Shown here: positions 5,464 to 51,017 of the stretch, piece after piece
Layout of the letters: each line of letters begins with the position of its first letter
How positions within the stretch are numbered: position 1 is the stretch's first letter
IMG/VR virus record: IMGVR_UViG_3300025117_000050
Coordinates: 1 to 64,000 of that record
DNA length: 64,000 nucleotides
Origin: a virus
Strand: one strand, 5' to 3'
Notes under the pieces: generated by a model
Database searches by the model: none
What the model saw: only the letters and a program-made list of their open reading frames with translations
Told to the model about the DNA's origin: nothing
Made by a program: the position numbers and the translations under genes

Positions 5464-6666
5464 ATGATTAGAACCCCATTATCTTTAAGTGTGAAGCAAG
5501 TATGTACCATGATTAAGAAAGGTAGTATGACTTTTGATAATCCGATTCAAAGACCTCCTGGGCAATGGAATCAACAGAAGAAAAGTGATTTAATTGAATC
5601 AATTTTCAGAAGATTTATTCCTGATTTCTTTGCAGTTAAAACTAGGGAAGAAAAAGGAAACGTCTATGACGTGATCGATGGTTTGCAGAGATTCACAACT
5701 ATTTGTTCCTATCTTAACGATGAGTGGGAATTGCTAGAGATTAAACCTGTAAAAATAGAAACTACTGGTGAAATACATAATATATCAGGTTTAAAATATT
5801 CTCAATTGCCGGAAGATATACAGGATGTAATAAAAAGCCATATGTTGACTATAAGAACAATAGAATTTGAAGAAGATGAAGACGAAGAAGAACTTGTTGA
5901 AGAAATATTTTATCATCTTAACAGTGGTGTTCCGATGGCAAAAGAGCATTTAGCTCTTATCTCAGCACCTAAGAACGTACAGGAATTTTGTCATAGAATT
6001 ATAGCAGAACATGATTTATTTGTAGGAATTGCCAAATATTCAGAATCAGCAGTTAAAAAATCAGATAAGCATATGACAATTTTACAGAGTGTCTTGTTAA
6101 TATCTGGTTTACCCTATGAAAGTTTTGCAGCAAAGCACATTGAAGAAGTATTTGCTAAAAATGAAATAACAGAAGAAGTTTTAAAGCAGACAGAAAAGGC
6201 ATTTACAGACATTGCAGATACCTTTCAATCGACACATAAATTTGTAGTTAAAATCAATATACCAATTATGACCTATATGTTTTCTAATACTACAGAGGAA
6301 AATAAAATTCCTGTAAGAGAGAAATTATTGAATTATGTTAATAAAGAAATGTTACCTGGAGATAAATATAAGGCTTATACAGGTGCAGGGAATGTTAAGA
6401 AGGATAAAGTTATTAAGCGTATTAAAGGTATGTTTGAGATATGCGGAGTAGTAGAAAGACCAATAGAAGTAGTAAAACAGACTTATGAAGAGATTAATGC
6501 AGTATTACAGGAGTTTAAAAGTGAATCTGAAACTGAGACTGAAGACGATTCTACTAACGATAATGCTAATGTCAATGTACAATCTGAACTTGAATCTGAC
6601 GAAATACCAGAATTAACATTAGAAGATATACCTGACATTGAATTGGATGGCAAAGAAGTTAGTTAA
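5464..6666 (+). CDS. DUF262-family (GmrS/ParB-fold) protein
   Basis: 400 residues. The N-terminal 100 residues fit DUF262: NPIQRPPGQWNQQKKSDLIE, then IPDFFAVKT and DVIDGLQRFTTI at 69-80, the DGQQR-like NTP-binding motif of the ParB/Srx fold. DUF262 is the N-terminal domain of GmrSD-type modification-dependent restriction enzymes, but no C-terminal DUF1524 HNH domain follows. Instead there is a helical region and a very acidic tail (SETETEDDS) that may mimic DNA. A defence, anti-defence or regulatory role is inference. Confidence 0.8.
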   Translation: MIRTPLSLSVKQVCTMIKKGSMTFDNPIQRPPGQWNQQKKSDLIESIFRRFIPDFFAVKTREEKGNVYDVIDGLQRFTTICSYLNDEWELLEIKPVKIETTGEIHNISGLKYSQLPEDIQDVIKSHMLTIRTIEFEEDEDEEELVEEIFYHLNSGVPMAKEHLALISAPKNVQEFCHRIIAEHDLFVGIAKYSESAVKKSDKHMTILQSVLLISGLPYESFAAKHIEEVFAKNEITEEVLKQTEKAFTDIADTFQSTHKFVVKINIPIMTYMFSNTTEENKIPVREKLLNYVNKEMLPGDKYKAYTGAGNVKKDKVIKRIKGMFEICGVVERPIEVVKQTYEEINAVLQEFKSESETETEDDSTNDNANVNVQSELESDEIPELTLEDIPDIELDGKEVS

Positions 6667-8988: not shown

Positions 8989-9648
8989 ATGAATTCATTG
9001 CTAAGAAAAAGAAAATCTAATCCAGAATTAGACAATAAAATTGATAAAATTATTGAACAGGTCAAAAATAAACAAATACCTGAATTCTATCCTAATGAAA
9101 TGGTTAACAACTTTAATATGGATAGAATTAGTTTAAGAAGTGACTTTATTAAAACTATAGGGTTTACTCTCATATCTAATGATTGGATTAAACCATTATC
9201 TCAATGGATAGGTAATAGAAAATGTCTTGAAGTTATGACAGGAACAGGTTCATTGAGTTTTGCTTTACAACAGCAAGGGATAGATATAATTGCTACTGAT
9301 AACTTTTCTTGGGAAGGTAGTTCTAACTGGAATGATAATGAAAATTATTGGACAGAAATTGAACATATAGATGCAATAGGAGCAGTTAAAAAATATGGTA
9401 AAGATATTGATATTATTATAATGTCGTGGCCTTATATGGATGATACTGCACATAGAATTTTACAGAGTATGAGAGAAGTAAATCCAAATTGTATTATGAT
9501 ATTTATTGGAGAGGGTATGGGTGGATGTACAGCAGATGATGAATTTTTTGAAAGTATTCAAGAAATTGAGGATACAGAGTTTGAGCAAGCAGTAAGTAAT
9601 TTTAAACAATGGTGGGGTATACATGATTATCCGCAATTGGTTAAATAA
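8989..9648 (+). CDS. SAM-dependent methyltransferase-like protein
   Basis: 219 residues, TTAGGAGG ribosome site. Residues 80-90 (LEVMTGTGSLS) fit class I methyltransferase motif I, ATDNFSW at 102 resembles the acidic end of strand 2, and IIMSWPYMDD near 146 sits where the catalytic D/N-P-P-Y would be. The degenerate motif IV leaves activity uncertain. May act on DNA or a small molecule, or only keep the fold. Confidence 0.65.
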   Translation: MNSLLRKRKSNPELDNKIDKIIEQVKNKQIPEFYPNEMVNNFNMDRISLRSDFIKTIGFTLISNDWIKPLSQWIGNRKCLEVMTGTGSLSFALQQQGIDIIATDNFSWEGSSNWNDNENYWTEIEHIDAIGAVKKYGKDIDIIIMSWPYMDDTAHRILQSMREVNPNCIMIFIGEGMGGCTADDEFFESIQEIEDTEFEQAVSNFKQWWGIHDYPQLVK

Positions 9649-17929: not shown

Positions 17930-17955
17930 CAGAATGATAAAATAAATGTTATAAT
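17926..17955 (+). promoter_or_regulatory. promoter with AATGATAAAATAAATGTT in spacer
   Basis: TTGACA, 18-base spacer, TATAAT. The spacer is base-for-base identical to that of the promoter at 30632, and the motif recurs upstream of the -35 boxes at 24857 and 42180. Confidence 0.7.
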
Positions 17956-39582: not shown

Positions 39583-39596
39583 AAGGAGTGATTTTA

Positions 39597-40037
39597 ATGA
39601 TTATTAAAACTCAAACTGCTAATGCTGTTAATGCTCAATGTTATAGGAAAGAGGAAGAGGTTGATTGGAGGTCGTGGTGTCCTAAACGTGGAGAGATTTA
39701 TTTGTGTCAGTTAGGAAATGAAGGTTTATTATATTCAGAAATTAAGGGTTATCGTCCAGTTTTAATAGCATCAAATGATATAGCGAACAGGCATAGCCCA
39801 GTAGTTACTATAATTCCATTAACTTCCAGTCAAATAAAAAATAACTTACCTGTTCATGTTAAAGTAGGGGTAGAAGAAGGGTTGCGAAATTTGAGTTTAA
39901 TTTGTTGCGAGCAGACTAAAACTGTGTCAAAAAATAGAATGTTTATAAACGGTAGTTTAGTTAAAATATGCAAATTAAGTAATGAATTAATGTGTAAAGT
40001 GGACAACGCATTAAAAATACAATTCGGATTAGTTTAA
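39597..40037 (+). CDS. MazF/PemK-like endoribonuclease-fold protein
   Basis: 146 residues from ATG 39597 (AAGGAGTGATTTTA). Residues 28-145 follow MazF: CPKRGEIYLCQLG, GYRPVLIASNDIANRHSPVV (Arg53 and Ser67 at the usual catalytic positions), TIIPLTS, LPVHVKVG, CEQTKTVSKNR, KVDNALKIQFGL. MazF toxins cut mRNA at short sites. No antitoxin gene is adjacent; its promoter has two palindromes. A paralogue is fused to an HTH domain at 43333. Confidence 0.85.
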   Translation: MIIKTQTANAVNAQCYRKEEEVDWRSWCPKRGEIYLCQLGNEGLLYSEIKGYRPVLIASNDIANRHSPVVTIIPLTSSQIKNNLPVHVKVGVEEGLRNLSLICCEQTKTVSKNRMFINGSLVKICKLSNELMCKVDNALKIQFGLV

Positions 40038-40184: not shown

Positions 40185-41543
40185 TTGTTAGTTAAAAATC
40201 AAAAAGTTAAAGTTAAATGGAATGGAGCACATAGAAAATATTATGAAGAAAAAGGTTATCCATTTACTAATTATGGTGATGAATTAGAGATAGACATAAA
40301 AGATTTAGCACCAAAAAGTCAAAAATATGTTTTAGTTAGTTGTGATTATTGCGGTATACCATTTATGAGGAGGTATTGTAATTACAATACAAGAAAAGAA
40401 AAATACGGTAAAGATGATAAAGATTGTTGTGATGATTGCAGAGTACATAAAAGAGAAGAAACATGTTTAGATAAATATGGTTTTAAAAATGCTGTTCAAG
40501 TAGAAGAAATACAAAATAAAATAAAAGAAACTATTAAGGAAAAATATGGAGTAGAATATATATCTCAAGTAGAAGAAATTAAAAATAAAAAGAAACAAAC
40601 TTGTTTAGATAGATATGGAGTAGAATATACCTTGCAAGTTCCAGAGATTAGAGAAATGATTATAGAAACTAATATAAATAAATATGGAGTTGAAAATCCA
40701 TTTCAAAATGAAGAAATTAAAGAAAAAATCAGACAAGTCAATATGGATAAATATGGTGTAGAATATCCAATGCAATTACCTGAAATAAGAGAAAAAAGTC
40801 AAGAAACAACTTTTAAAAATCTTGGTGTTAAATATGCTATGCAATCTTATAAAACACAAGAAAAAAATAAACAATCTATTCAAGATAAATACGGATATAC
40901 AAATATTTTTCAGATACCAGAGATAAAAGAAAAAATAAAGAAAATTAATATTAAAAAATATGGAGCGGAAAATCCTTTAAATAATAAAGAAATTAGAGAA
41001 AAAGCTAATAAAACTATAAAAGATAAATATGGTGTTGATAATGTTTCACAGAATCCAGAAATACAAGCAAAAATTAGACGTTCATTTTATAAAAATGGTA
41101 CTACTCCTACTTCAATTCAACAAAGATATATTTGTTTTTTAGTAAACGGTAAATTAAATTTTCCTATTGGAAGAACAAATGCAGATATATTGATAAATAA
41201 TAATATAATTATTGAATATGATGGTGGTGGACATAATCTAAGTGTAAAAATAGGAAATATAACGCAAGATCAATTTAATAGAAAAGAAATTAAAAAATAT
41301 TATTTTTTAAAAAGTAAAGGATATAAGATTATTAGAATTGTATCTGCTAAAGATAATTTACCTAAAGAAGAGAAAAGATTAATTGATGCTATAAATATAG
41401 CAATTGATTATTTAAATCAAAATCATTCTTGGTTTGAAATAAATATTGATGATGGAAAATTAAGATGTATTTGTTATGAAAAAGATTATAATTTTGGAGA
41501 ATTAAGAAGAGGAACAAAAGAAAATTTAGCTATAAATACATAA
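40185..41543 (+). CDS. putative homing endonuclease with repeats (DUF7487-like)
   Basis: 452 residues from TTG 40185 after AAAGGAGG. N-terminal zinc cluster CDYCGIPF and CCDDC. Then about eight repeats of 27-28 residues with the core KYGVE(Y/N)..Q..EI..KI (residues about 88-300), of the sort that reads DNA. The C-terminus (INNNIIIEYDGGGHN, then KKYYFLKSKGYKIIRI) resembles an EDxHD/Vsr-like nuclease: E-Y-D-G-G-H and a following strand. Likely a mobile endonuclease inserted between the MazF-like and DUF5317 genes. Confidence 0.7.
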   Translation: MLVKNQKVKVKWNGAHRKYYEEKGYPFTNYGDELEIDIKDLAPKSQKYVLVSCDYCGIPFMRRYCNYNTRKEKYGKDDKDCCDDCRVHKREETCLDKYGFKNAVQVEEIQNKIKETIKEKYGVEYISQVEEIKNKKKQTCLDRYGVEYTLQVPEIREMIIETNINKYGVENPFQNEEIKEKIRQVNMDKYGVEYPMQLPEIREKSQETTFKNLGVKYAMQSYKTQEKNKQSIQDKYGYTNIFQIPEIKEKIKKINIKKYGAENPLNNKEIREKANKTIKDKYGVDNVSQNPEIQAKIRRSFYKNGTTPTSIQQRYICFLVNGKLNFPIGRTNADILINNNIIIEYDGGGHNLSVKIGNITQDQFNRKEIKKYYFLKSKGYKIIRIVSAKDNLPKEEKRLIDAINIAIDYLNQNHSWFEINIDDGKLRCICYEKDYNFGELRRGTKENLAINT

Positions 41544-41582: not shown

Positions 41583-42176
41583 TTGATTGAATTTATTATA
41601 GGAGCATTTTTATATGCTAAATTTAAAAAAGGTTATAAGTTAAAATACATATTTAAATACCCATACATATTTGCGATAATACCACCTTTATTATGTGTTT
41701 TACTATACATATATTTAGAATATTGTGTTTTTAATCAGCAATATTGGTTTTTCCCTTATCAACATATAATAAAGACTACAACGCTTATAAGTTATGTTCC
41801 GTTGATTTATATATATAATTTATATTATAATGATATATATGAAAATGATACATTAAAATCATTTTTAACATCTCCTGCTAGTAAAACTACATTTTGTTTA
41901 GGATTAGGCTCATTTTTAAACTATATGGCAATTATCTCTAACAATATGAAAATGCCAGTATTTCCCAGTAATTGTTATTGGACTGGTTATATTAAACCTG
42001 AATTCATTAATGATGGTTTACATGTGCTAGGTGATGCTTATACTAAAGCAATCCCCTTATGCGATTGGATCGATTTTGGAATATATGTAGCTAGTCCAGG
42101 TGATATATTAATAAGATCATTTGCATTTTTAATTATTTATCATTCTATAAAAAATTCTAATAAAATGATAAAATAA
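41583..42176 (+). CDS. DUF5317-like membrane protein
   Basis: 197 residues from TTG 41583 after AAAGGAGG. Spans at about 1-13, 29-46, 66-80, 103-120 and 172-188. The segments SNNMKMPVFPSN and VASPGDILIRSFAF fit the DUF5317 family of clostridial membrane proteins (NxxKMPV and SPGDI). Unknown function. Lies just upstream of the Agr-like genes, with a promoter between, so an accessory role in that circuit is possible. Confidence 0.65.
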   Translation: MIEFIIGAFLYAKFKKGYKLKYIFKYPYIFAIIPPLLCVLLYIYLEYCVFNQQYWFFPYQHIIKTTTLISYVPLIYIYNLYYNDIYENDTLKSFLTSPASKTTFCLGLGSFLNYMAIISNNMKMPVFPSNCYWTGYIKPEFINDGLHVLGDAYTKAIPLCDWIDFGIYVASPGDILIRSFAFLIIYHSIKNSNKMIK

Positions 42177-42208
42177 TTGTTGACACATAATTAACTCTGT
42201 GGTAATAT
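42164..42208 (+). promoter_or_regulatory. promoter of Agr-like operon
   Basis: TTGACA (42180-42185), 17 bases, TAATAT. AATGATAAAATAATTG abuts the -35 box, as at 24841. It overlaps the end of the DUF5317 gene. Confidence 0.7.
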
Positions 42209-42244
42209 ATAAATAGAAAAAGTTGCTAAGGAGTTGATAGAGAA

Positions 42245-43039
42245 ATGATACATGATATTACAAATGCTTTGTTAAATTTTTTACTTGTAAGTGTTTTGGA
42301 GGAGTTTGTATGGTTGTTAATAACCATAATATTATTAAAAAGATTTGATTTGCTTGATAGATATAGATGGAAAGAGAGTATGCGAGAATTTTTAATACCT
42401 ATCTTACCAACTGCACTTTATATCAATTTATCTAGATATGTTTTACATATGCCTAGAATAATAATATTATTTGGATGTATATTTATATTTTATGGTTTGA
42501 CATTATATATAATAAAGAAAAATTCATTTATAGATGAAAAATTACCATATTTAAAAATATTAATGTTTGTATTTATAGGTATTCTTATTATAGGAATAAC
42601 AGAATTGATTTATATGCCAATAATTTTATATATTATACAACAACCAGTAACAATAATGAATCAAAATATTTTAATGAATTTTGCATTTTCAATACCATCT
42701 AGAATATTTCAAATATTATTAATTCTTGCATTAATTTATAAATATAATGAAATTAAATTATTCAGCAATATAATAAAAGATAAAGTATTATTAATTATTA
42801 CAGTGTTGTTTTTAAGTATTATATTGCTAATAGTATTTATTACAACAAAAATTATTCATAGTTATTGTTTAATTTTAAACTTTTCTTTATATTCACAAAT
42901 ATTAATTGGAATTAGCATAACAACAATTATAACATTAATAATATTTTTTTATCTTATTCCAATTAATTATTTAATAAATAAAATGTTTTTACTTAACAAA
43001 TCACATCAAAATATGTTTGATGATGATTATATAGATTAA
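42245..43039 (+). CDS. AgrC-like membrane sensor lacking a kinase domain
   Basis: 264 residues, AAGGAGTTGATAGAGAA site. Begins like clostridial AgrC sensors (DITNALLNFLLVSVLEEFVW, LLITIILLKRF) and has about seven hydrophobic segments (10-30, 47-62, 68-92, 104-130, 145-165, 178-202, 210-246). AgrC then continues into a His-kinase of about 200 residues; here the frame ends at NKMFLLNKSHQNMFDDDYID, with no His box or ATPase motifs and no continuation in other frames. AgrD follows 21 bases later. It may be a decoy receptor, a regulator of the host AgrC or a non-kinase signal receptor. Confidence 0.65.
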   Translation: MIHDITNALLNFLLVSVLEEFVWLLITIILLKRFDLLDRYRWKESMREFLIPILPTALYINLSRYVLHMPRIIILFGCIFIFYGLTLYIIKKNSFIDEKLPYLKILMFVFIGILIIGITELIYMPIILYIIQQPVTIMNQNILMNFAFSIPSRIFQILLILALIYKYNEIKLFSNIIKDKVLLIITVLFLSIILLIVFITTKIIHSYCLILNFSLYSQILIGISITTIITLIIFFYLIPINYLINKMFLLNKSHQNMFDDDYID

Positions 43040-43060
43040 AATAGAAAGGAGGGAAATTTC

Positions 43061-43180
43061 ATGAAAAAGTTTGCAATTATTACTTCTTTAATTGGTATTA
43101 TCGGCATTATCTGTGCAAATTGTATTAATTCTGCTTGGACATTTAACCAACCGAAAGCACCATCTATGTTAGTTAAGTAA
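43061..43180 (+). CDS. agrD: AgrD-like cyclic-peptide propeptide
   Basis: 39 residues, GAAAGGAGGGAAATTTC site. Architecture of AgrD: an N-terminal amphipathic/hydrophobic helix (MKKFAIITSLIGIIGIIC), a core (NCINSAWTF, 20-28), then the recognition tail NQPKAPSML like the QPxxPxSL tail of clostridial AgrD. By alignment on QP the ring residue is Ser24, giving a five-residue SAWTF lactone; Cys21 would need a larger ring. AgrB (44627) would cleave after Phe28 and cyclise. Too short for usual ORF filters. Confidence 0.8.
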   Translation: MKKFAIITSLIGIIGIICANCINSAWTFNQPKAPSMLVK

Positions 43181-43199
43181 TTTATAACTACATAGAATA

Positions 43200-43235
43200 T
43201 TTATAGTAGAGGATGATTGTTTTCTCTACTATAAA
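43200..43235 (+). terminator. attenuator-like hairpin after agrD
   Basis: TTTATAGTAGAG/CTCTACTATAAA stem (43200-43211 with 43224-43235), 12-base loop, no long T-run. Between agrD and the next promoter; may reduce read-through or stabilise agrD mRNA. Confidence 0.5.
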
Positions 43236-43257
43236 TACAAAAAATAAATATAAATAC

Positions 43258-43286
43258 TTGTATTCTGGAGGATAGTATGGTAAAAT
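43258..43286 (+). promoter_or_regulatory. promoter of HTH-MazF gene
   Basis: TTGTAT, 17 bases, TAAAAT, 46 bases upstream of the start codon. Confidence 0.5.
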
Positions 43287-43332
43287 AATAGATGTAATAT
43301 ATATAAAATATTAAATTGAGGAGTGATTAATA

Positions 43333-44229
43333 ATGTCAATATTATTTGGTAAGAAGAATGTATTAAAACCTACTTCTACAAATTCTATTTCTGAAATAAC
43401 AAAGAAAGAGTTAGCTTACAATATAAGAGTTGCCGTAGGTCATCGAAGTATTACTCAAGTCTGTAATATATTAAAAATGGTCGATCCAAAACCATTAGTT
43501 GACTTAATAAAAATGAATTATAATGAATTACCTGATAGACAATTACTTAGAAAAATTGCATCTGCAAGCGAAGGTAGGGTTTCTTATCAAAACCTTTATT
43601 CTGTCTGCGGTTATTCCGAATTTGATTCTGAAGAAGATCGTAGTTGGGCAAAGTGGGTTCCTGAACGTGGTAGTTGTTATATGATTGATTTAGGATGGAA
43701 TATGGATAGTGAGCAAAATTCTGTGCGTCCGGCAATAGTGATGCAAAACAACAAAGGCAATCAATACTCAGGAACAACCGTTATTATCCCTATATCTTCT
43801 CGTTCTAAAAAATTTTCTTCACAGATTCATGTATTATTAGAAAAAGAATTAGGATTTTTACGGGAATGTCAATGTTTTCCAGAACAAATTCGCTGTGTTT
43901 CAAAAAGGAGGTTCTTCTATAATTCTGTACCTTATAAAATCACTACTTTACCAGAACATAAATTATTAGAAATCAAAAACGCACTTGAGTTTGAACTAGG
44001 TTTTGAGCCTTTATATTTTGACGAAGAAAAAATATTTAAATTAATTTCTCATATTCGTTCTTTAGAAAATAATATTAAAATCAAAAAATCACATAATCTA
44101 ATTGATATATTAAATCAAAAAATGGATGATCTAAAAGAATACTGTTCAAAATATCATAAGAATCACAAGATTATCTTACAAGAATACGATAGAATCAACA
44201 ATTGCGGTTACAATGCAGTATCCATATAA
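43333..44229 (+). CDS. HTH-MazF fusion protein
   Basis: 298 residues after GAGGAGTGATTAATA. Residues 20-97 look like an XRE-type helical DNA-binding/repressor end (LAYNIRVAVGHRSITQVCNI, then LLRKIASASEGRVSYQNLYS). Residues 108-225 are MazF-like: WVPERGSCYMIDLG, SVRPAIVMQNN (Arg132), SGTTVIIPISS, QIHVLL, EQIRCVSKRR, LEIKNALEFELGF. The last 65 residues form a coiled coil. Between agrD and agrB, it is a candidate output of the circuit: RNA cleavage and DNA binding in one chain. C-ending codons are more frequent than in flanking genes. Confidence 0.8.
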   Translation: MSILFGKKNVLKPTSTNSISEITKKELAYNIRVAVGHRSITQVCNILKMVDPKPLVDLIKMNYNELPDRQLLRKIASASEGRVSYQNLYSVCGYSEFDSEEDRSWAKWVPERGSCYMIDLGWNMDSEQNSVRPAIVMQNNKGNQYSGTTVIIPISSRSKKFSSQIHVLLEKELGFLRECQCFPEQIRCVSKRRFFYNSVPYKITTLPEHKLLEIKNALEFELGFEPLYFDEEKIFKLISHIRSLENNIKIKKSHNLIDILNQKMDDLKEYCSKYHKNHKIILQEYDRINNCGYNAVSI

Positions 44230-44291
44230 AACAACAAATCCAACCAAAATAAACAAATAAAACTAAAACAAAAAAAAGGAGATCAATTAAA

Positions 44292-44633
44292 ATGATAATC
44301 TTTGATGAAAAACAATTAAAATACTTATTTAATAAATACAAAATAAGATATAAAATATTTGAAGAAACAAATATTCTACTTATAGATAGTGGTCTTGATG
44401 AGTGGTTAATCAAGTATCAACATGGAAGAGATCAACCATATTGCCTTATGCACAAAAATAAATTAAAACAAACTAAAAGGTTCCATGTGCAGAGATGGTT
44501 GTCAAATTTTTATCAATCACTTGATAGTCTATTGTCACATAAAAATATTTTTGTAGATCATTCAAGTTCAAAAAATACATATAAAAAATATAGAAATAAT
44601 AAAATAAATAATAAAAGGAGAAAAAGTTGTTAA
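44292..44633 (+). CDS. hypothetical basic protein in Agr-like cluster
   Basis: 113 residues, AAAGGAGATCAATTAAA site. Aromatic and basic with a disordered Lys/Asn tail; no HTH or catalytic motif recognised. Overlaps the AgrB start by 7 bases, so the two are translationally coupled. Confidence 0.6.
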   Translation: MIIFDEKQLKYLFNKYKIRYKIFEETNILLIDSGLDEWLIKYQHGRDQPYCLMHKNKLKQTKRFHVQRWLSNFYQSLDSLLSHKNIFVDHSSSKNTYKKYRNNKINNKRRKSC

Positions 44634-45421
44634 AATATATAAAAAACTACATAATAACATTTCGTTATATCAAACTATTCTCATATTGGAATGCAAGATA
44701 TTTGCATAACAAACTAAAAGAAGAAAGAATTAGAGAATCACAAAACTTACATAATCCACATAAAGAAAAACATAAATATTATTATATATTGCAAATGATA
44801 ATTAAAAAATTATTTCAAATAATTAATAAAATAATTTCTTTAACTCCATTAGGAAGAAAACTATCATCGTACATAACTGAAAAATATTCACAATATAAAC
44901 AGAAAGAGAAAAAACCTAAAAAAATATACAACAGATACACCTACTATTATGGTCTTCAAATAATCATCGGAGGCATAAATAAATTCCTTCTACTAATCAT
45001 ACCAGGCTTACTATTTAACATCTTGCCGCAACTATTACTAACCACGTTATCATTTGTATCACTAAGAATATGGACTGGTGGTCTGCACTACAATTCTTAT
45101 ACCAAATGCAGCTACATATCACTATTATCCTTCACACTCACAGCACTACTATCAAAATACATCATATTAAATCAATTTATCACTATGTCAATATTTCTAT
45201 CTGTATTTATATTAATTTTAATCTATGCCCCTGTAGAACATCCAAACAGACCAATAAAAGAAAAAGAAAAAATTAAATACAAATTAATCGCATTATTTGT
45301 ATTAAGCACCTTAACTATTATCTATATGTTTACAAATAATGTTATTATCTGTAATTCTATTATATATGGGATATTATTAGCAGGTATAATTATGTTACCA
45401 ATTATAAATAAACTAAGATAA
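44627..45421 (+). CDS. agrB: AgrB-like peptide-processing membrane protease
   Basis: 264 residues from TTG 44627 (AAAGGAGAAAAAG). Residues about 100-264 are AgrB: YYYGLQIIIGGINKFLLLII, SLRIWTGGLHYNSYTKCSYI with catalytic His154 and Cys161 seven residues apart as in known AgrB, then YAPVEHPNRPI and two further spans. The first 95 residues are an unusual Lys-rich extension compared with the usual 190-210-residue protein. AgrB cleaves AgrD C-terminally and forms the ring in the membrane. Confidence 0.88.
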   Translation: MLKYIKNYIITFRYIKLFSYWNARYLHNKLKEERIRESQNLHNPHKEKHKYYYILQMIIKKLFQIINKIISLTPLGRKLSSYITEKYSQYKQKEKKPKKIYNRYTYYYGLQIIIGGINKFLLLIIPGLLFNILPQLLLTTLSFVSLRIWTGGLHYNSYTKCSYISLLSFTLTALLSKYIILNQFITMSIFLSVFILILIYAPVEHPNRPIKEKEKIKYKLIALFVLSTLTIIYMFTNNVIICNSIIYGILLAGIIMLPIINKLR

Positions 45422-45552
45422 TTATTAACATAATTTCGTAAATGGTCGATAAATGTCGGTAGGTGCGTATTGTTAATATGCTAAATATTATATAGAATAA
45501 TAGTATTAAAACATATTAATCACAAATTAAATTAAAATATGAATTTAGGCTA

Positions 45553-45608
45553 TTGTTTTTTTATTATTAAGGTATTATAATAGAACAAATATACAAACAA
45601 ATGTTCTA
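45553..45608 (+). promoter_or_regulatory. promoter with overlapping inverted repeat
   Basis: TTGTTT, 17 bases, TATAAT (45576-45581). TAGAACA (45581-45587) and TGTTCTA (45602-45608) form a perfect 7-bp inverted repeat with 14 bases between, starting in the -10 and covering +1: a good candidate repressor operator. Confidence 0.6.
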
Positions 45609-45861
45609 CAAACAAATAGAGGAGGAGATTGTTACGAATAAAACAGTTTACACAATAAAAGATGAAAATGACAAATATGTACATGGTAATAGTATTAAAA
45701 AAATTAATGAAAAGTATTATTATTCCCCATATTCATGTTTAGAAGATGGTTGTATTGCTTATACTAATAAAATAAGAGTAGAGGAAGCATTGACTACTCT
45801 TAAATTACATAATCAACTAGGTGGGCTAGGTCACAAATTTATTATTACGCTTGTTTCATAA
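45601..45861 (+). CDS. hypothetical protein downstream of agrB
   Basis: Up to 86 residues. The ATG at 45601 lies in the operator-like repeat and has no site; AGGAGGAG at about 45620 points to a later, non-standard start (ATT/GTT/ACG), giving about 76 residues. Beta-rich (TVYTIKDENDKYVHGN). Not recognised. Confidence 0.5.
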   Translation: MFYKQIEEEIVTNKTVYTIKDENDKYVHGNSIKKINEKYYYSPYSCLEDGCIAYTNKIRVEEALTTLKLHNQLGGLGHKFIITLVS

Positions 45862-45883
45862 TCAATAAATAATAATTTTTCTA

Positions 45884-45912
45884 TTGACATAGCATACTAA
45901 TACATATATAAT
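45884..45912 (+). promoter_or_regulatory. strong promoter of yopQ-mrpR-like operon
   Basis: Perfect TTGACA, 17 bases, TATAAT, 48 bases before the 45960 start. Confidence 0.8.
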
Positions 45913-45959
45913 AATCATTAATGAGATATTATATATAAATAAAAAAGAGGTGAGTAACT

Positions 45960-47336
45960 ATGCTTAATATTAAAAATGCTATGTTGATAAAAGAATTAAA
46001 ACCACTAATAATTAAATATGGAAACAATTCAAAAATTTATAATCTTGTTCACGAATCCTTTATTAAAAAGGGTTTAACGGGTAGTAATGCAAAAAATCTA
46101 TTTACAGGTAAACTACCATTAGAATCTTTAGATATCACTTGTCAAAAAGAATTATATTTATTATTTTCTTTTACTGATAGCATGAGAAAAGCATTAAATT
46201 CATTTGATGAAATGTCTAAAGATACTTTTGGTTCAGAAGAAGAGTACTCAAAATTAAAACTAGAAAATTATTTTACTCCTATGGAAATTGAAGAGTTTAC
46301 GGATTTCGTGATAGAGAAAGAAGAAATAAGTAGATATCCTTACAGATTAAAAAACATGTTAAAAGTTGGGGAAAATCACTATATAGGCATTATATCTGCT
46401 AGAGAATTATCTTGGATAGATGCCTCCAATGACATTGTTTATGATTTCGCTGTACAGCGTGATCCCAAAATTGATATATTTGGCATGAAACGTATTAATA
46501 CTGATTTAAAGAAAATAGATGAAATGACAGAGAAGTTACTTTCTGGCAATTACTTTTCAGATGAAATTAAGTTAAATGTTAAGAATGATGGTGAAGATCA
46601 TATCGAATTCGATTCAAAAGACGGAATTTATGGTGATCTTATTATTCATTCAGGAACAATAACTTGTTTTGACGGTTATCACAGAAAAGCAGCCAATTCA
46701 AAAGTTATGAATATTAATAATGAATTGCAATTTAATTGGAAACTAGGTGTTACTAACTATCCAGAACCTAAAGCAAAAAAATTCATGATTCAAATTAACA
46801 AACAAAAACCTATTAAGATTGAACACATCAGAAATATTGATGAAACAAGAAATGAAAATGTAATTGTCAATAATATTATCAATAATTCTAATTCCGAACT
46901 TGCTGATAAGATTAAAGATTCTGATGCAGAATTAAAACATGGTGGATTAACTAAAAAATCTATATTATCTTTAGCAATAGAAGAACAATATAAGGAATTT
47001 TTAGTTACTAAAATCAATAATATTGAAATATCTAATTGGATAGTAGAATTCACAAATCATTTAATGGGATTATATACTAACGAATTTTTATTTAATGTAG
47101 ACAAAACTAAAAAAATAAGTTATATTAATCATAAGAATATGTTTATGGGATATATCGCACTTTCAAGAAAATTGTATAAGCAAGATGATTGGAAAAATAA
47201 AACTAAAAAAATAATGGAAAGCGTTGATTTTAGCATTGATAATGATATTTGGAAAAGTATTAAAATCAATGAAGATAATTTAAATAAAACATCAAAGAAT
47301 GAATTATATAATATATTTATTAAAAAGCAGGTGTAA
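45960..47336 (+). CDS. YopQ-like DGYHR protein (DndB/ParB-fold type)
   Basis: 458 residues after AAAGAGGTGAGTAACT. FAVQRDPKID (163-172) and ITCFDGYHRKAAN (234-246) are the two signatures of DGQHR/DndB-like proteins with a ParB/Srx-like core. Size, motif and position directly before an integrase-fold protein match SPbeta YopQ (460 residues) next to YopR. In SPbeta these genes lie in the lysogeny region; YopQ's biochemical role is not settled as far as I know. Confidence 0.7.
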   Translation: MLNIKNAMLIKELKPLIIKYGNNSKIYNLVHESFIKKGLTGSNAKNLFTGKLPLESLDITCQKELYLLFSFTDSMRKALNSFDEMSKDTFGSEEEYSKLKLENYFTPMEIEEFTDFVIEKEEISRYPYRLKNMLKVGENHYIGIISARELSWIDASNDIVYDFAVQRDPKIDIFGMKRINTDLKKIDEMTEKLLSGNYFSDEIKLNVKNDGEDHIEFDSKDGIYGDLIIHSGTITCFDGYHRKAANSKVMNINNELQFNWKLGVTNYPEPKAKKFMIQINKQKPIKIEHIRNIDETRNENVIVNNIINNSNSELADKIKDSDAELKHGGLTKKSILSLAIEEQYKEFLVTKINNIEISNWIVEFTNHLMGLYTNEFLFNVDKTKKISYINHKNMFMGYIALSRKLYKQDDWKNKTKKIMESVDFSIDNDIWKSIKINEDNLNKTSKNELYNIFIKKQV

Positions 47337-47341
47337 AATAA

Positions 47342-48412
47342 ATGGTAAAACATAGAAACGGGAGAAAAAATTTAGCAGAAAGAGTGTTTAAGCATGATAG
47401 AGATGTTAAAGAAGAATTCTTAAAATCATTGAAACCCTCAACTGCTAATACTGTAAGAAGTATACTTTTTAAGGTAGATGAATATGAAGAATTAATTGGG
47501 AAAAGTATATATGATTTTAATTTAGATGATCGTGATGATTTTATTATATCTATGTTCCCTAATAAAAGTAAAGGTGTTATTAATACAACTAGATCATATC
47601 TGGTAGGATATATTAATTATTGTATTGACAATAACCTTGTTAGACATATGGAAAATAGATTTAGTTTAATCTCTAAAGATGATATAGATAATTATGTCAA
47701 TGATATGGCTATGCAAATGAAGTACCTGTCGAAGGAAGAAATTAAAGAAGCACAAAGTAAATTGGTTAATAATTGTGATAAATTAATTTTGCAATTAGTT
47801 CCTTTATCAGCCAGAGGTCGCACCGAAAAGGATAATACTAATGAAGAATTAATAAATTTAAGAGTGCAAGATGCTGTAGAATCTTACGAAAAAGGCAATC
47901 TAAAACTTTGGAATAATGATGGAGATTTTAGGTATATAAAAATTGATGATGAAACAATAGAATTATTAAAGAAAACTATAAATGATGATAAATATATCAT
48001 TAATAATGGAAGTGAATATAGTCGTAAAAGACATGATAAAAAACTTGGCAGAGGCATGGGAGAAAAAAGTTTCCCTTTAAATGATACTGGCTATGTTTTT
48101 AGAACTGCTGGCAAGAATAAAAGGGGTAAAGTTAAATCCAATTATTTTAATTCTAAAATTAATATAATAAAAGATTGGGTGGAGAATCCATTTATTAACA
48201 TAACTAATTTACACGCATCAGGTATGATTGATTATGTCATCCAATTAGAAAATGAAAAAGGAGAAGAATTAGATAATAACGACTATATAGATGTTTGTGA
48301 AAAATATTTATTTGGTAAACCTAGAATTTTGCCCAATGGTGAAAATGATTGGAGTATGTCAATATCAAAATTAAAGACAATGGTAAAAGATTATATTAAT
48401 ATTAAATCATAA
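47342..48412 (+). CDS. MrpR (YopR)-like integrase-fold repressor
   Basis: 356 residues, GCAGGTG site, 5 bases after the yopQ-like gene. Residues 22-110 resemble an integrase SAM-like N-terminal domain; LVPLSARGRTEKDNTNEELI (152-171) corresponds to the catalytic-Arg box. The HxxR box is degenerate (LHASGMIDYV at 290-299) and no clear active-site Tyr follows, as in SPbeta MrpR, a recombinase turned lysogeny repressor. Operon with the YopQ-like and DUF4046 genes. An active integrase is less likely. Confidence 0.7.
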   Translation: MVKHRNGRKNLAERVFKHDRDVKEEFLKSLKPSTANTVRSILFKVDEYEELIGKSIYDFNLDDRDDFIISMFPNKSKGVINTTRSYLVGYINYCIDNNLVRHMENRFSLISKDDIDNYVNDMAMQMKYLSKEEIKEAQSKLVNNCDKLILQLVPLSARGRTEKDNTNEELINLRVQDAVESYEKGNLKLWNNDGDFRYIKIDDETIELLKKTINDDKYIINNGSEYSRKRHDKKLGRGMGEKSFPLNDTGYVFRTAGKNKRGKVKSNYFNSKINIIKDWVENPFINITNLHASGMIDYVIQLENEKGEELDNNDYIDVCEKYLFGKPRILPNGENDWSMSISKLKTMVKDYINIKS

Positions 48413-48424
48413 GGATGTGAAAAA

Positions 48425-49279
48425 ATGGCGAAAAATAGTATTAACTTATCTGACTATGAAGATATAGAAGTTTATAATATGGTTAGGTTTGGAATTATAG
48501 GTAGATTTCCTAATAATTTTTGGGGTGGATTAGATACTTATAAAACTGCAAAAGACCTGACTAGATATATGTTTGAAAATATTCTTGAATGGAGTATAGA
48601 AGATATTAAGCATAAGGTAACAGCAGATATTTTTTATGAAAATAAACTTGGTAATATGCTAAAAACACTTTTTGATAATAATTTATTAGATGCATTGCTT
48701 AACGCATACCCAGAATTAGCAGATTGGGTAGAAGAAAAAAAGAATAAAATTATTATCGAAAAAGAACCAAGAGAAAAATATACAGATGAAGAGTTAATAG
48801 AAAATTTACAGCAAAAATATAAGGAATTAAATAGAACACCTTATATAAGAGAAATGTCTGAACCAGAAGGAAATGTTTATATATCAAGATTTGGTAGTTG
48901 GAGTAATGCTTTAATTCTTGCTGAGTTAATTGAGGACATATGTGTAGATGTAGATAATTCAGAAGAAGCAATTAATAAAGCGCAAAGGGAAATTAAAGAT
49001 TTTGCGTATAAAGTAGAAAGATTACCAACTAAAAAAGAAGTAGATAATTTATTTTCTCCTGGAGAATTAATATCATATTTCGGTTCTTTAAAAGGACTTT
49101 ATGATTATTTAAGTGAAGGTTATACAGAAGAAGAATTAATAAATATATTAATTGATAAAAGAAATAAATTAGGGAGAAATCCAATAAATAAGGATATAAA
49201 ATTCCCAAGACCAATTATCTTTATTGATAAATTCAATAGTTGGGAGAATGCCTTAAAAGAAGCAAGATTAGATGAATAA
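48425..49279 (+). CDS. DUF4046 protein with homing-endonuclease-associated repeats
   Basis: 284 residues, AAGGATGTGAAAAA site. Residues 10-110 fit DUF4046 (RFGIIGRFPNNFWGGLDTYK, IEDIKHKVTADIFYENKLGN). Residues 118-284 are three repeats of about 55 residues: YTDEELIENLQQKYKELNRT ... FGSWSNAL, PTKKEV...FGSLKGLY, YTEEELINILIDKRNKLGRN ... FNSWENAL, which match HNH-associated DNA-reading repeats. No nuclease motif. Probably DNA-binding. Third gene of the repressor operon. Confidence 0.75.
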   Translation: MAKNSINLSDYEDIEVYNMVRFGIIGRFPNNFWGGLDTYKTAKDLTRYMFENILEWSIEDIKHKVTADIFYENKLGNMLKTLFDNNLLDALLNAYPELADWVEEKKNKIIIEKEPREKYTDEELIENLQQKYKELNRTPYIREMSEPEGNVYISRFGSWSNALILAELIEDICVDVDNSEEAINKAQREIKDFAYKVERLPTKKEVDNLFSPGELISYFGSLKGLYDYLSEGYTEEELINILIDKRNKLGRNPINKDIKFPRPIIFIDKFNSWENALKEARLDE

Positions 49280-49298
49280 TTTAATCTTGCTTCTTTTA
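49259..49298. terminator. bidirectional terminator
   Basis: Perfect GAAGCAAGATTA/TAATCTTGCTTC stem overlapping the 3' end of the 48425 gene, followed by TTTTATTTAT. Separates it from the minus-strand gene. Confidence 0.8.
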
Positions 49299-50405: not shown

Positions 50406-51017
50406 ATGAAACCTATAAACAAAGAATTAATCATCAAAGTATGTGAGCATATAATAGAACACAATCTTTCTTATAGAAAAATAGCTGATATATTCGGAAT
50501 CAATTTCAAAACTGTTTACAATTATACACAAATGATTGAAAGTATTGATTCCGAATTACATATAAAAGTCCAAAAATGTTTAAAAGAGAGAAAGGAAAAA
50601 CATCATAAACATTTATTGAAAAACTTAAACAATATCTATAAAGAAATTTGTGAATATTTTATTTGTGGAAGTACCATGAAACAGACTGGAATACATTTTA
50701 ATTCCAGTAATCGCTCTATACACTATTTATTCCATAATTATGTTAAATATAATGATCCTGAATTATATGTTATGATTTTAGAAATGATAGAATTAAATAA
50801 ACTTAAATCAATTAAGACACGTTCTGGAATAAGAAAGATGAAAAACATTGAAGAAAGATTAAATCTTTGTAAGACTATTATTAGTGACAAATTAACTTTG
50901 AAAGCAACAAGTGAAATATTTGATTTAGATGTAAAGACGATAAAAAGTTATATTAATAGTATAAGAGATGTGGATTATGGATTGCATGATGAAGTTTATA
51001 AACATTTGTGGAGATAA
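50406..51017 (+). CDS. triple SpoIIID-like HTH protein
   Basis: 203 residues. Three repeats of a helix-turn-helix: LSYRKIADIFGINFKTVYNY (25-44), then about 97-115 (TGIHFNSSNRSIHYLFHNYV), and LTLKATSEIFDLDVKTIKSY (167-186). Each resembles SpoIIID (TVRxxAxxFxISxSTVHK). Likely a transcription regulator that reads a long site; a target could be host sporulation genes, but this is speculation. Confidence 0.7.
   Translation: MKPINKELIIKVCEHIIEHNLSYRKIADIFGINFKTVYNYTQMIESIDSELHIKVQKCLKERKEKHHKHLLKNLNNIYKEICEYFICGSTMKQTGIHFNSSNRSIHYLFHNYVKYNDPELYVMILEMIELNKLKSIKTRSGIRKMKNIEERLNLCKTIISDKLTLKATSEIFDLDVKTIKSYINSIRDVDYGLHDEVYKHLWR

Follow-up and report, generated by a model that had tools for sequence, protein, structure and literature searches.

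A putative kinase-less Agr-type cyclic-peptide cassette at the position of arbitrium next to the YopQ-MrpR genes of SPbeta-like phages

Arbitrium is the textbook example of communication between viruses and is known from Bacillus-type phages. In SPbeta its genes lie upstream of yopQ and yopR, the latter coding for the lysogeny repressor MrpR. What stands at this place in an SPbeta-like phage that lacks the arbitrium receptor AimR? We have addressed this question in a 64,000-nucleotide stretch of viral DNA, bases 1-64,000 of the 96,701-base IMG/VR record IMGVR_UViG_3300025117_000050 (hereafter, the window). The initial annotation described a row of Agr-like and lysogeny genes here and suggested that an Agr signal may feed the lysogeny switch. 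This row is confirmed, all in one direction and with two labels corrected, by Pfam and PHROGs searches and by comparison with related phages: DUF5317, a polytopic membrane protein, AgrD, a MazF-domain protein, an orphan, AgrB, a small open reading frame (ORF), YopQ and MrpR (Table 1). We propose, with a probability of roughly 0.6, that in a clade of SPbeta-like phages a kinase-less, Agr-type cyclic-peptide module replaces arbitrium beside YopQ-MrpR.

Recurrence of the cassette beside YopQ-MrpR and exclusion of AimR

The two lysogeny proteins were correctly recognized at the outset. SPbeta YopQ itself falls in phrog_5732 (7e-171), and for both SPbeta YopQ and SPbeta YopR the best-scoring PHROG family is that of the window counterpart. 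In tblastn searches the MrpR homologue finds SPbeta yopR at 1e-9 and Geobacillus virus E3 at 1e-19, and an alignment profile of the window protein and its relatives matches the solved structures of SPbeta MrpR at 1e-122. The aim genes, said initially to lie just upstream of yopQ-yopR in SPbeta, are indeed upstream, but yopM-yopP intervene between aimP and yopQ; no yopP was found at the corresponding place in the window. Outside the locus, the record is collinear with SPbeta yorG-yorL from 81.5 to 94 kb (tblastn to SPBc2), with the order of the block kept: a Sak4-like protein, YorH, a helicase with a large insertion, YorJ, a RecJ-like nuclease and a DNA polymerase that is 42% identical to its SPbeta counterpart. 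By this collinearity the window contig is a distant SPbeta-like phage. Its guanine-plus-cytosine content is 25% in the window, nearly all genes are co-oriented and no tRNA genes were found there; a clostridial host is a guess drawn from base composition.

AgrB, as initially annotated, was matched by the AgrB profile. Searches with the window AgrB alone returned no close relative in IMG/VR or GTDB genomes, tblastn against named phages and plasmids gave nothing, and AgrB was above the curated cut-off in none of the 44 SPbeta-like IMG/VR records of our first relatives set, which are mostly of arbitrium type (AimR in 33). A lone transfer, first suggested by these empty searches, was overturned by relatives found via YopQ, MrpR and the DNA polymerase. 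Such nearer relatives were gathered by scans with small alignments of the three proteins: AgrB is present in 12 of 50 further records, and the whole cassette stands upstream of YopQ-MrpR in nine (L169 and L186-L193; L190 ends within the lysogeny module, after YopQ). A scan based on AgrB alone placed all 14 of its loci beside YopQ-MrpR, found no copy elsewhere and added four distinct phages, L249, L252 (from four samples), L253 and L258.

The cassette of DUF5317, membrane protein, AgrD, MazF-domain protein and AgrB is thus found upstream of YopQ-MrpR in 14 distinct phages, the window included, which is more than chance. The linkage between cassette and lysogeny module, as read from the genomes, is strong. 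Its internal arrangement varies: the DUF5317 gene is present in 12 of the 14 and was not seen in L189, while the L192 sequence starts just upstream of the membrane-protein gene, and AgrB is placed at the opposite end of the cassette in L186 and L193. In L249, L252 and L258, YopQ and MrpR share just 26-28% identity with those of the other phages, which implies either an ancient partnership or a cassette that moves from one lysogeny module to another. Comparison of L192 with the window points to movement: AgrB and the MazF-domain protein are 78% and 60% identical, YopQ and MrpR 37% and 34%.

The proposal that arbitrium is replaced at this locus agrees with the distribution of the two systems. 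Of the 59 MrpR-bearing records, AimR alone is present in 34 and AgrB alone in 12; 13 lack both, and no record combines the two. AimR (PF22871) is absent from the window record and every Agr-bearing record tested. Fisher's test of this exclusion gives 5e-6, a figure that is descriptive only, since the records are related and not randomly drawn. The distance from AimR to the downstream MrpR is 4-5 kb in most arbitrium records, and the window has its membrane-protein gene and agrD equally far, 4-5 kb, ahead of mrpR; by these matching distances the cassette occupies the same place as the arbitrium genes.

Three further SPbeta-like phages carry a second architecture, which we call type II as opposed to the type I cassette described above: a membrane protein, AgrB, AgrD and a LytTR regulator. 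The unit lies directly downstream of mrpR in G057 and G094, with either the membrane protein or AgrB first, and a similar unit in G058 lies 14 kb upstream of mrpR. LytTR matches in the three phages are at 2e-5, 1.6e-3 (under the curated cut-off) and 1.5e-7. The type II membrane proteins, 216-224 residues long, likewise have no kinase.

Putative signal, receptor and effector genes

His154 and Cys161 of AgrB, at the catalytic spacing, are invariant in 13/13 aligned AgrB proteins (alignment A9); the true start of the window protein may lie downstream of the listed TTG. Hidden Markov model searches gave no match to the ORF initially called AgrD, but its layout is conserved, with AgrD-like peptides at the same place in 13 related phages. 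The ring position, six residues ahead of a conserved Gln, is Ser in 13/14 and Cys in 1/14, and most of the 14 peptides have a Pro a few residues past the Gln. In the alignment of ten phages (A11), position 24 is Ser in nine and Cys in one, and Gln30 and Pro34 are invariant. The 14 phages have 14 distinct rings: SAWTF (the window), SFMGL, SAAWL, SMFFS, SWLFT, SYFIS, SWFWL, CRFWF, SMVVW, SAFLW, SWFFA, SWAFS, SWLGA and SAMWS.

The label 'AgrC-like sensor', initially given to the membrane protein, had to be dropped: the protein has no kinase domain, and comparisons at the level of Pfam, PDB sequences and fold reveal no detectable relation to AgrC. It has about seven hydrophobic segments by hydropathy and an acidic C-terminal tail, and E19, D38 and K104 are invariant across the 14-member family (A7). 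Its predicted fold, with a predicted local distance difference test score of 62 from the single sequence and 76 with 14 relatives, has no match in PDB or BFVD. In the window contig as a whole, the kinase domain HATPase_c_5 is absent (PF02518 was not searched), as is LytTR. A second copy of the membrane-protein family is present between the signalling genes and YopQ in L186, L187, L190, L193 and L252.

The proposed effector was initially annotated as HTH-MazF. The MazF domain stands, and the protein matches PDB MazF at 1e-14; the helix-turn-helix (HTH) resembles XRE by eye only and has no Pfam HTH match. In the alignment of ten proteins (A8) the catalytic Arg is invariant and all ten have Ser or Thr at the catalytic Thr position. 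No MazE antitoxin was identified among the neighbouring proteins scanned; the N-terminal extension of the MazF-domain protein might act in that role. Just upstream of the cassette the window has a second, stand-alone MazF-like gene (39,588-40,037), with relatives at a similar place in most related phages.

The signalling genes diverge where the lysogeny genes do not. Between L188 and L189, YopQ and MrpR are 100% identical and the flanking DNA 94-99%, while identity falls to 45% for the membrane protein, 57% for AgrD, 59% for the MazF-domain protein and 65% for AgrB. The same swapping is seen between L190 and L191 (YopQ 92%, membrane protein 45%, AgrD 33%) and between L187 and L191 (MrpR 87%, membrane protein 41%, AgrD 35%). 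Sender-receiver alleles under diversifying selection are known for agr groups and arbitrium types. Divergent signal, candidate receptor and effector genes beside a constant lysogeny module are the expected pattern for specificity groups and, as a sequence pattern, no proof of signalling.

A hairpin between the agrD stop and the mazF promoter is found in all 14 phages (ten scored, four added later). Its z-score is -4.5 in the window and ranges from -2.9 to -6.8 across the ten phages examined, and four pairs are altered on both sides by compensatory changes. An Rfam search gave no relevant match. We have considered and rejected an intrinsic terminator, because in most phages no T-run follows the stem.

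Table 1. Features of the locus in window coordinates
Feature	Position	Strand	Evidence or remark
DUF5317 membrane protein	41583..42176	+	Pfam DUF5317 9e-13; constant upstream neighbour of the cassette
Copy of repeated phage promoter element (GAATGATAAAATAAATGTT, 2 mismatches), candidate operator	42163..42181	+	Just upstream of the cassette promoter
Sigma-A-like promoter TTGACA-17-TAATAT, membrane protein-agrD	42180..42208	+	-35 element and spacer AACTCTrTGG conserved in L169 and L192
Kinase-less polytopic membrane protein, 264 residues, proposed receptor	42245..43039	+	Family A7; hydropathy
AgrD-like precursor, 39 residues	43061..43180	+	Predicted five-residue lactone ring Ser-Ala-Trp-Thr-Phe
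RNA hairpin, agrD stop to mazF promoter	43198..43237	+	No T-run behind
Promoter-like site TTGTAT-17-TAAAAT (extended -10), ahead of the MazF-domain gene	43258..43286	+	Read from sequence
MazF-domain protein, N-terminally extended and with a C-terminal tail, proposed effector	43333..44229	+	Pfam PemK_toxin 3e-17
Orphan protein	44292..44633	+	Otherwise only in L169 and L192, 29-30% identity
AgrB, AgrD-processing membrane peptidase	44627..45421	+	Pfam AgrB 9e-37
Small conserved ORF, 86 residues, AgrB-YopQ interval	45601..45861	+	Relatives at the same place
Sigma-A promoter TTGACA-17-TATAAT, yopQ-mrpR operon	45884..45912	+	12/12 match, perfect
YopQ homologue (DndB-like family)	45960..47336	+	phrog_5732 1.8e-62
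MrpR/YopR homologue, integrase fold, master lysogeny repressor	47342..48412	+	Pfam MrpR_N_CB 4e-13; phrog_5830 2.7e-46
HNH-repeat/DUF4046 protein, operon end	48425..49279	+	Pfam 6e-32 and 4e-5
Intrinsic terminator-like stem closing the operon	49254..49298	+	20-pair stem

Proposed mechanism and its rivals

In the mechanism that we propose, AgrB would cleave and cyclize AgrD, releasing a peptide of five residues, in most phages a Ser lactone, that accumulates with rising numbers of infected cells or lysogens, and the membrane protein would read this peptide outside the cell. As this protein has no kinase, we take the LytTR regulatory systems, in which a kinase-less membrane inhibitor restrains a regulator (PMC6193735), as a model and suggest that the signal is relayed by direct protein contact. 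At low peptide the membrane protein would keep the MazF-domain protein inactive, and at high peptide it would release it. Once free, the MazF-domain protein might act on phage transcripts and perhaps also on promoters, so that MrpR wins and lysogeny follows. We infer this sign of the response from phi3T, in which arbitrium works via the host MazF and MazF activity promotes lysogeny (PMC10769878). Production and sensing of the peptide, receptor-effector contact and the effect on lysogeny are also inferred.

Several points weigh against this proposal. Since neither sequence nor fold comparison detectably links the membrane protein to AgrC, its putative receptor role rests on place, conservation and diversity. 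The MazF-domain protein could be a defence or addiction element, its link to MrpR is hypothetical, and the search for MrpR operators in the window contig identified none. This search relied on SPBRE, the published MrpR-binding site (PMC10516654): repeat counting in SPBc2 recovers an agreeing 12-copy element, TATGCATATTTTTTG, upstream of aimR and yosX (positions given are SPBc2 76202, 77891, 129211 and 129279; L005, L012), of which the window contig has no convincing copies. The window contig is incomplete, and the contigs derive from few metagenome series. The 59 MrpR-bearing records are mutually related and were collected by similarity, not randomly, and the 13 with neither system indicate that many SPbeta-like phages do without.

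The alternative that survives best, though we consider it unlikely, is a prophage-borne defence or abortive-infection device in which a MazF toxin is armed by the Agr peptide at high lysogen density against rival phages, the cassette adjoining mrpR only because that operon is expressed in lysogens. Every type I cassette has the MazF-domain protein with its catalytic residues kept, most have the stand-alone MazF-like gene just upstream, and fast allele turnover fits defence genes equally well. However, defence cargo should combine freely with arbitrium, and the cassette never occurs with AimR; it was found solely beside YopQ-MrpR in a scan that did not use YopQ or MrpR, and type II units carry a LytTR regulator and no MazF.

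It is improbable that the phage peptide targets the host Agr system, activating or jamming it, with the membrane protein as an immunity or decoy protein. This would be consistent with the lack of HATPase_c_5 kinases and LytTR regulators in the window contig and with the agr genes of phage phiCDHM1, which likewise come without a response regulator (PMC3901668). Yet the membrane protein, the MazF-domain protein and AgrB diverge jointly with AgrD at identical YopQ-MrpR, as in a self-contained sender-receiver set, and both architectures encode a phage regulator within the unit. More doubtful still is an AimR-like role for the MazF-domain protein as cytoplasmic peptide receptor, with the membrane protein merely carrying or excluding the peptide. 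Between L188 and L189 the MazF domain diverges (37-50% identity) and the N-terminal part is kept (62-92%), but this domain contrast is missing in other pairs, and Agr peptides are known to be sensed extracellularly. Finally, a single arrival of the Agr genes without benefit to the phage, to which the first 44 AgrB-free records lent some colour, is largely refuted by conservation, as 14 distinct phages keep intact frames, catalytic residues and a covarying hairpin.

For the kinase-less Agr-type module we would go one step further, with confidence only slightly better than even: it may be an independent peptide language of SPbeta-like phages outside the arbitrium clade, in which an Agr-type cyclic lactone is sensed by a kinase-less membrane receptor with direct control over a MazF-domain effector (or, in other hosts, over a LytTR regulator), with swappable specificity alleles beside MrpR.

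Neighbouring elements and relation to known signalling systems

The cassette promoter is preceded by a copy of GAATGATAAAATAAATGTT, an element that also precedes this promoter in L169 and L192. At up to two mismatches it has four copies in the window, at 17932, 24840, 30638 and 42163, against 0.09 expected, and one at 76374 of the record; a wider family comprises about 12 intergenic copies against 0.13 expected. The element is a candidate operator of some phage regulator. A site similar to the TTGTAT-17-TAAAAT promoter in front of the MazF-domain gene is present at the same place in 9/9 other phages of the first cassette set. In L252 (about 9080-9139), L253, L258, L189 and L190, a second inverted repeat, TAAGATAT ... 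ATATCTTA, spans the -10 region and the mazF leader and is a possible operator or leader hairpin.

Relatives of the small ORF, 106-157 residues long, occupy the same place in 8/9 other phages of the first cassette set. A homing-endonuclease-like gene precedes the cassette in the window (40,185-41,543; phrog_12131, DUF7487), similar genes lie at varying spots around it in L188, L189, L190 and L193, and in L188, L189 and L193 one is inserted between the small ORF and YopQ. A SpoIIID-like HTH gene (Pfam; 50,406-51,017) is found downstream of the lysogeny operon, and a protein with a GmrSD-N (DUF262) domain, possibly a restriction-type or defence gene, is encoded at 5464-6666. In the YorI-type DnaB helicase gene of the record (83,126-85,471; L004), the insertion of about 350 additional mid-protein residues is probably an intein.

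How does the cassette compare with known systems? As in the arbitrium of SPbeta-like Bacillus phages, peptide-signal genes lie a few kb upstream of YopQ-MrpR, a hairpin stands between the precursor gene and its downstream neighbour (in phi3T, aimP and aimX are separated by a terminator; PMC10769878), MazF is a downstream player (in phi3T) and signal alleles are many. However, the cassette encodes a predicted AgrB-made ring peptide, a membrane protein and the phage's own MazF-domain protein, while arbitrium uses a linear imported hexapeptide and the cytoplasmic receptor AimR, absent here. As proposed for the cassette, a phage-made peptide in the phi3T arbitrium-MazEF network determines what becomes of MazF, and MazF there favours lysogeny. 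In phi3T, however, MazF is a host protein under the control of AimX, YosL and phi3T_93 (PMC10769878), while here a MazF-domain protein is encoded within the phage cassette.

With AgrBDCA of Gram-positive bacteria the cassette shares the catalytic His and Cys of AgrB and an AgrD-like precursor with a five-residue ring. It differs in the mostly Ser ring position, and type I cassettes have a membrane protein and a MazF-domain protein instead of any detectable AgrC homology, kinase or AgrA-type regulator. The agr3 genes of the Clostridioides difficile phage phiCDHM1, to which the initial annotation correctly pointed, likewise place agrB and agrD in a temperate phage with no response regulator (PMC3901668). 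There, however, agrC has a HATPase domain and adjoins the endolysin gene; the phage is a 54-kb myovirus and not SPbeta-like, and transcription of agr, not a role in lysogeny, has been demonstrated (PMC3901668). The LytTR systems HdrRM and BrsRM (PMC6193735), which pair a kinase-less membrane protein with a regulator, come nearest to type II cassettes; they have no AgrB/AgrD signal, and type I cassettes carry a MazF-domain protein in place of the LytTR regulator.

That a phage can carry agr genes is known from phiCDHM1 (PMC3901668), and control of SPbeta lysogeny by a peptide is known as well. None of the literature that we searched describes Agr genes beside MrpR, let alone a kinase-free set with a MazF-domain effector across many phages, and agr goes unmentioned in a 2026 review on phage communication. 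If our proposal is true, communication at the MrpR switch would have evolved more than once, with the target conserved and not the messenger; there would be an Agr system without a kinase, and MazF would be suggested as a recurring output of phage signals. L188 and L189, with the same repressor and different signal genes, offer a natural test of signal specificity. SPbeta-like phages with this cassette may have evolved a second chemical language in which to settle whether the host is killed or spared.

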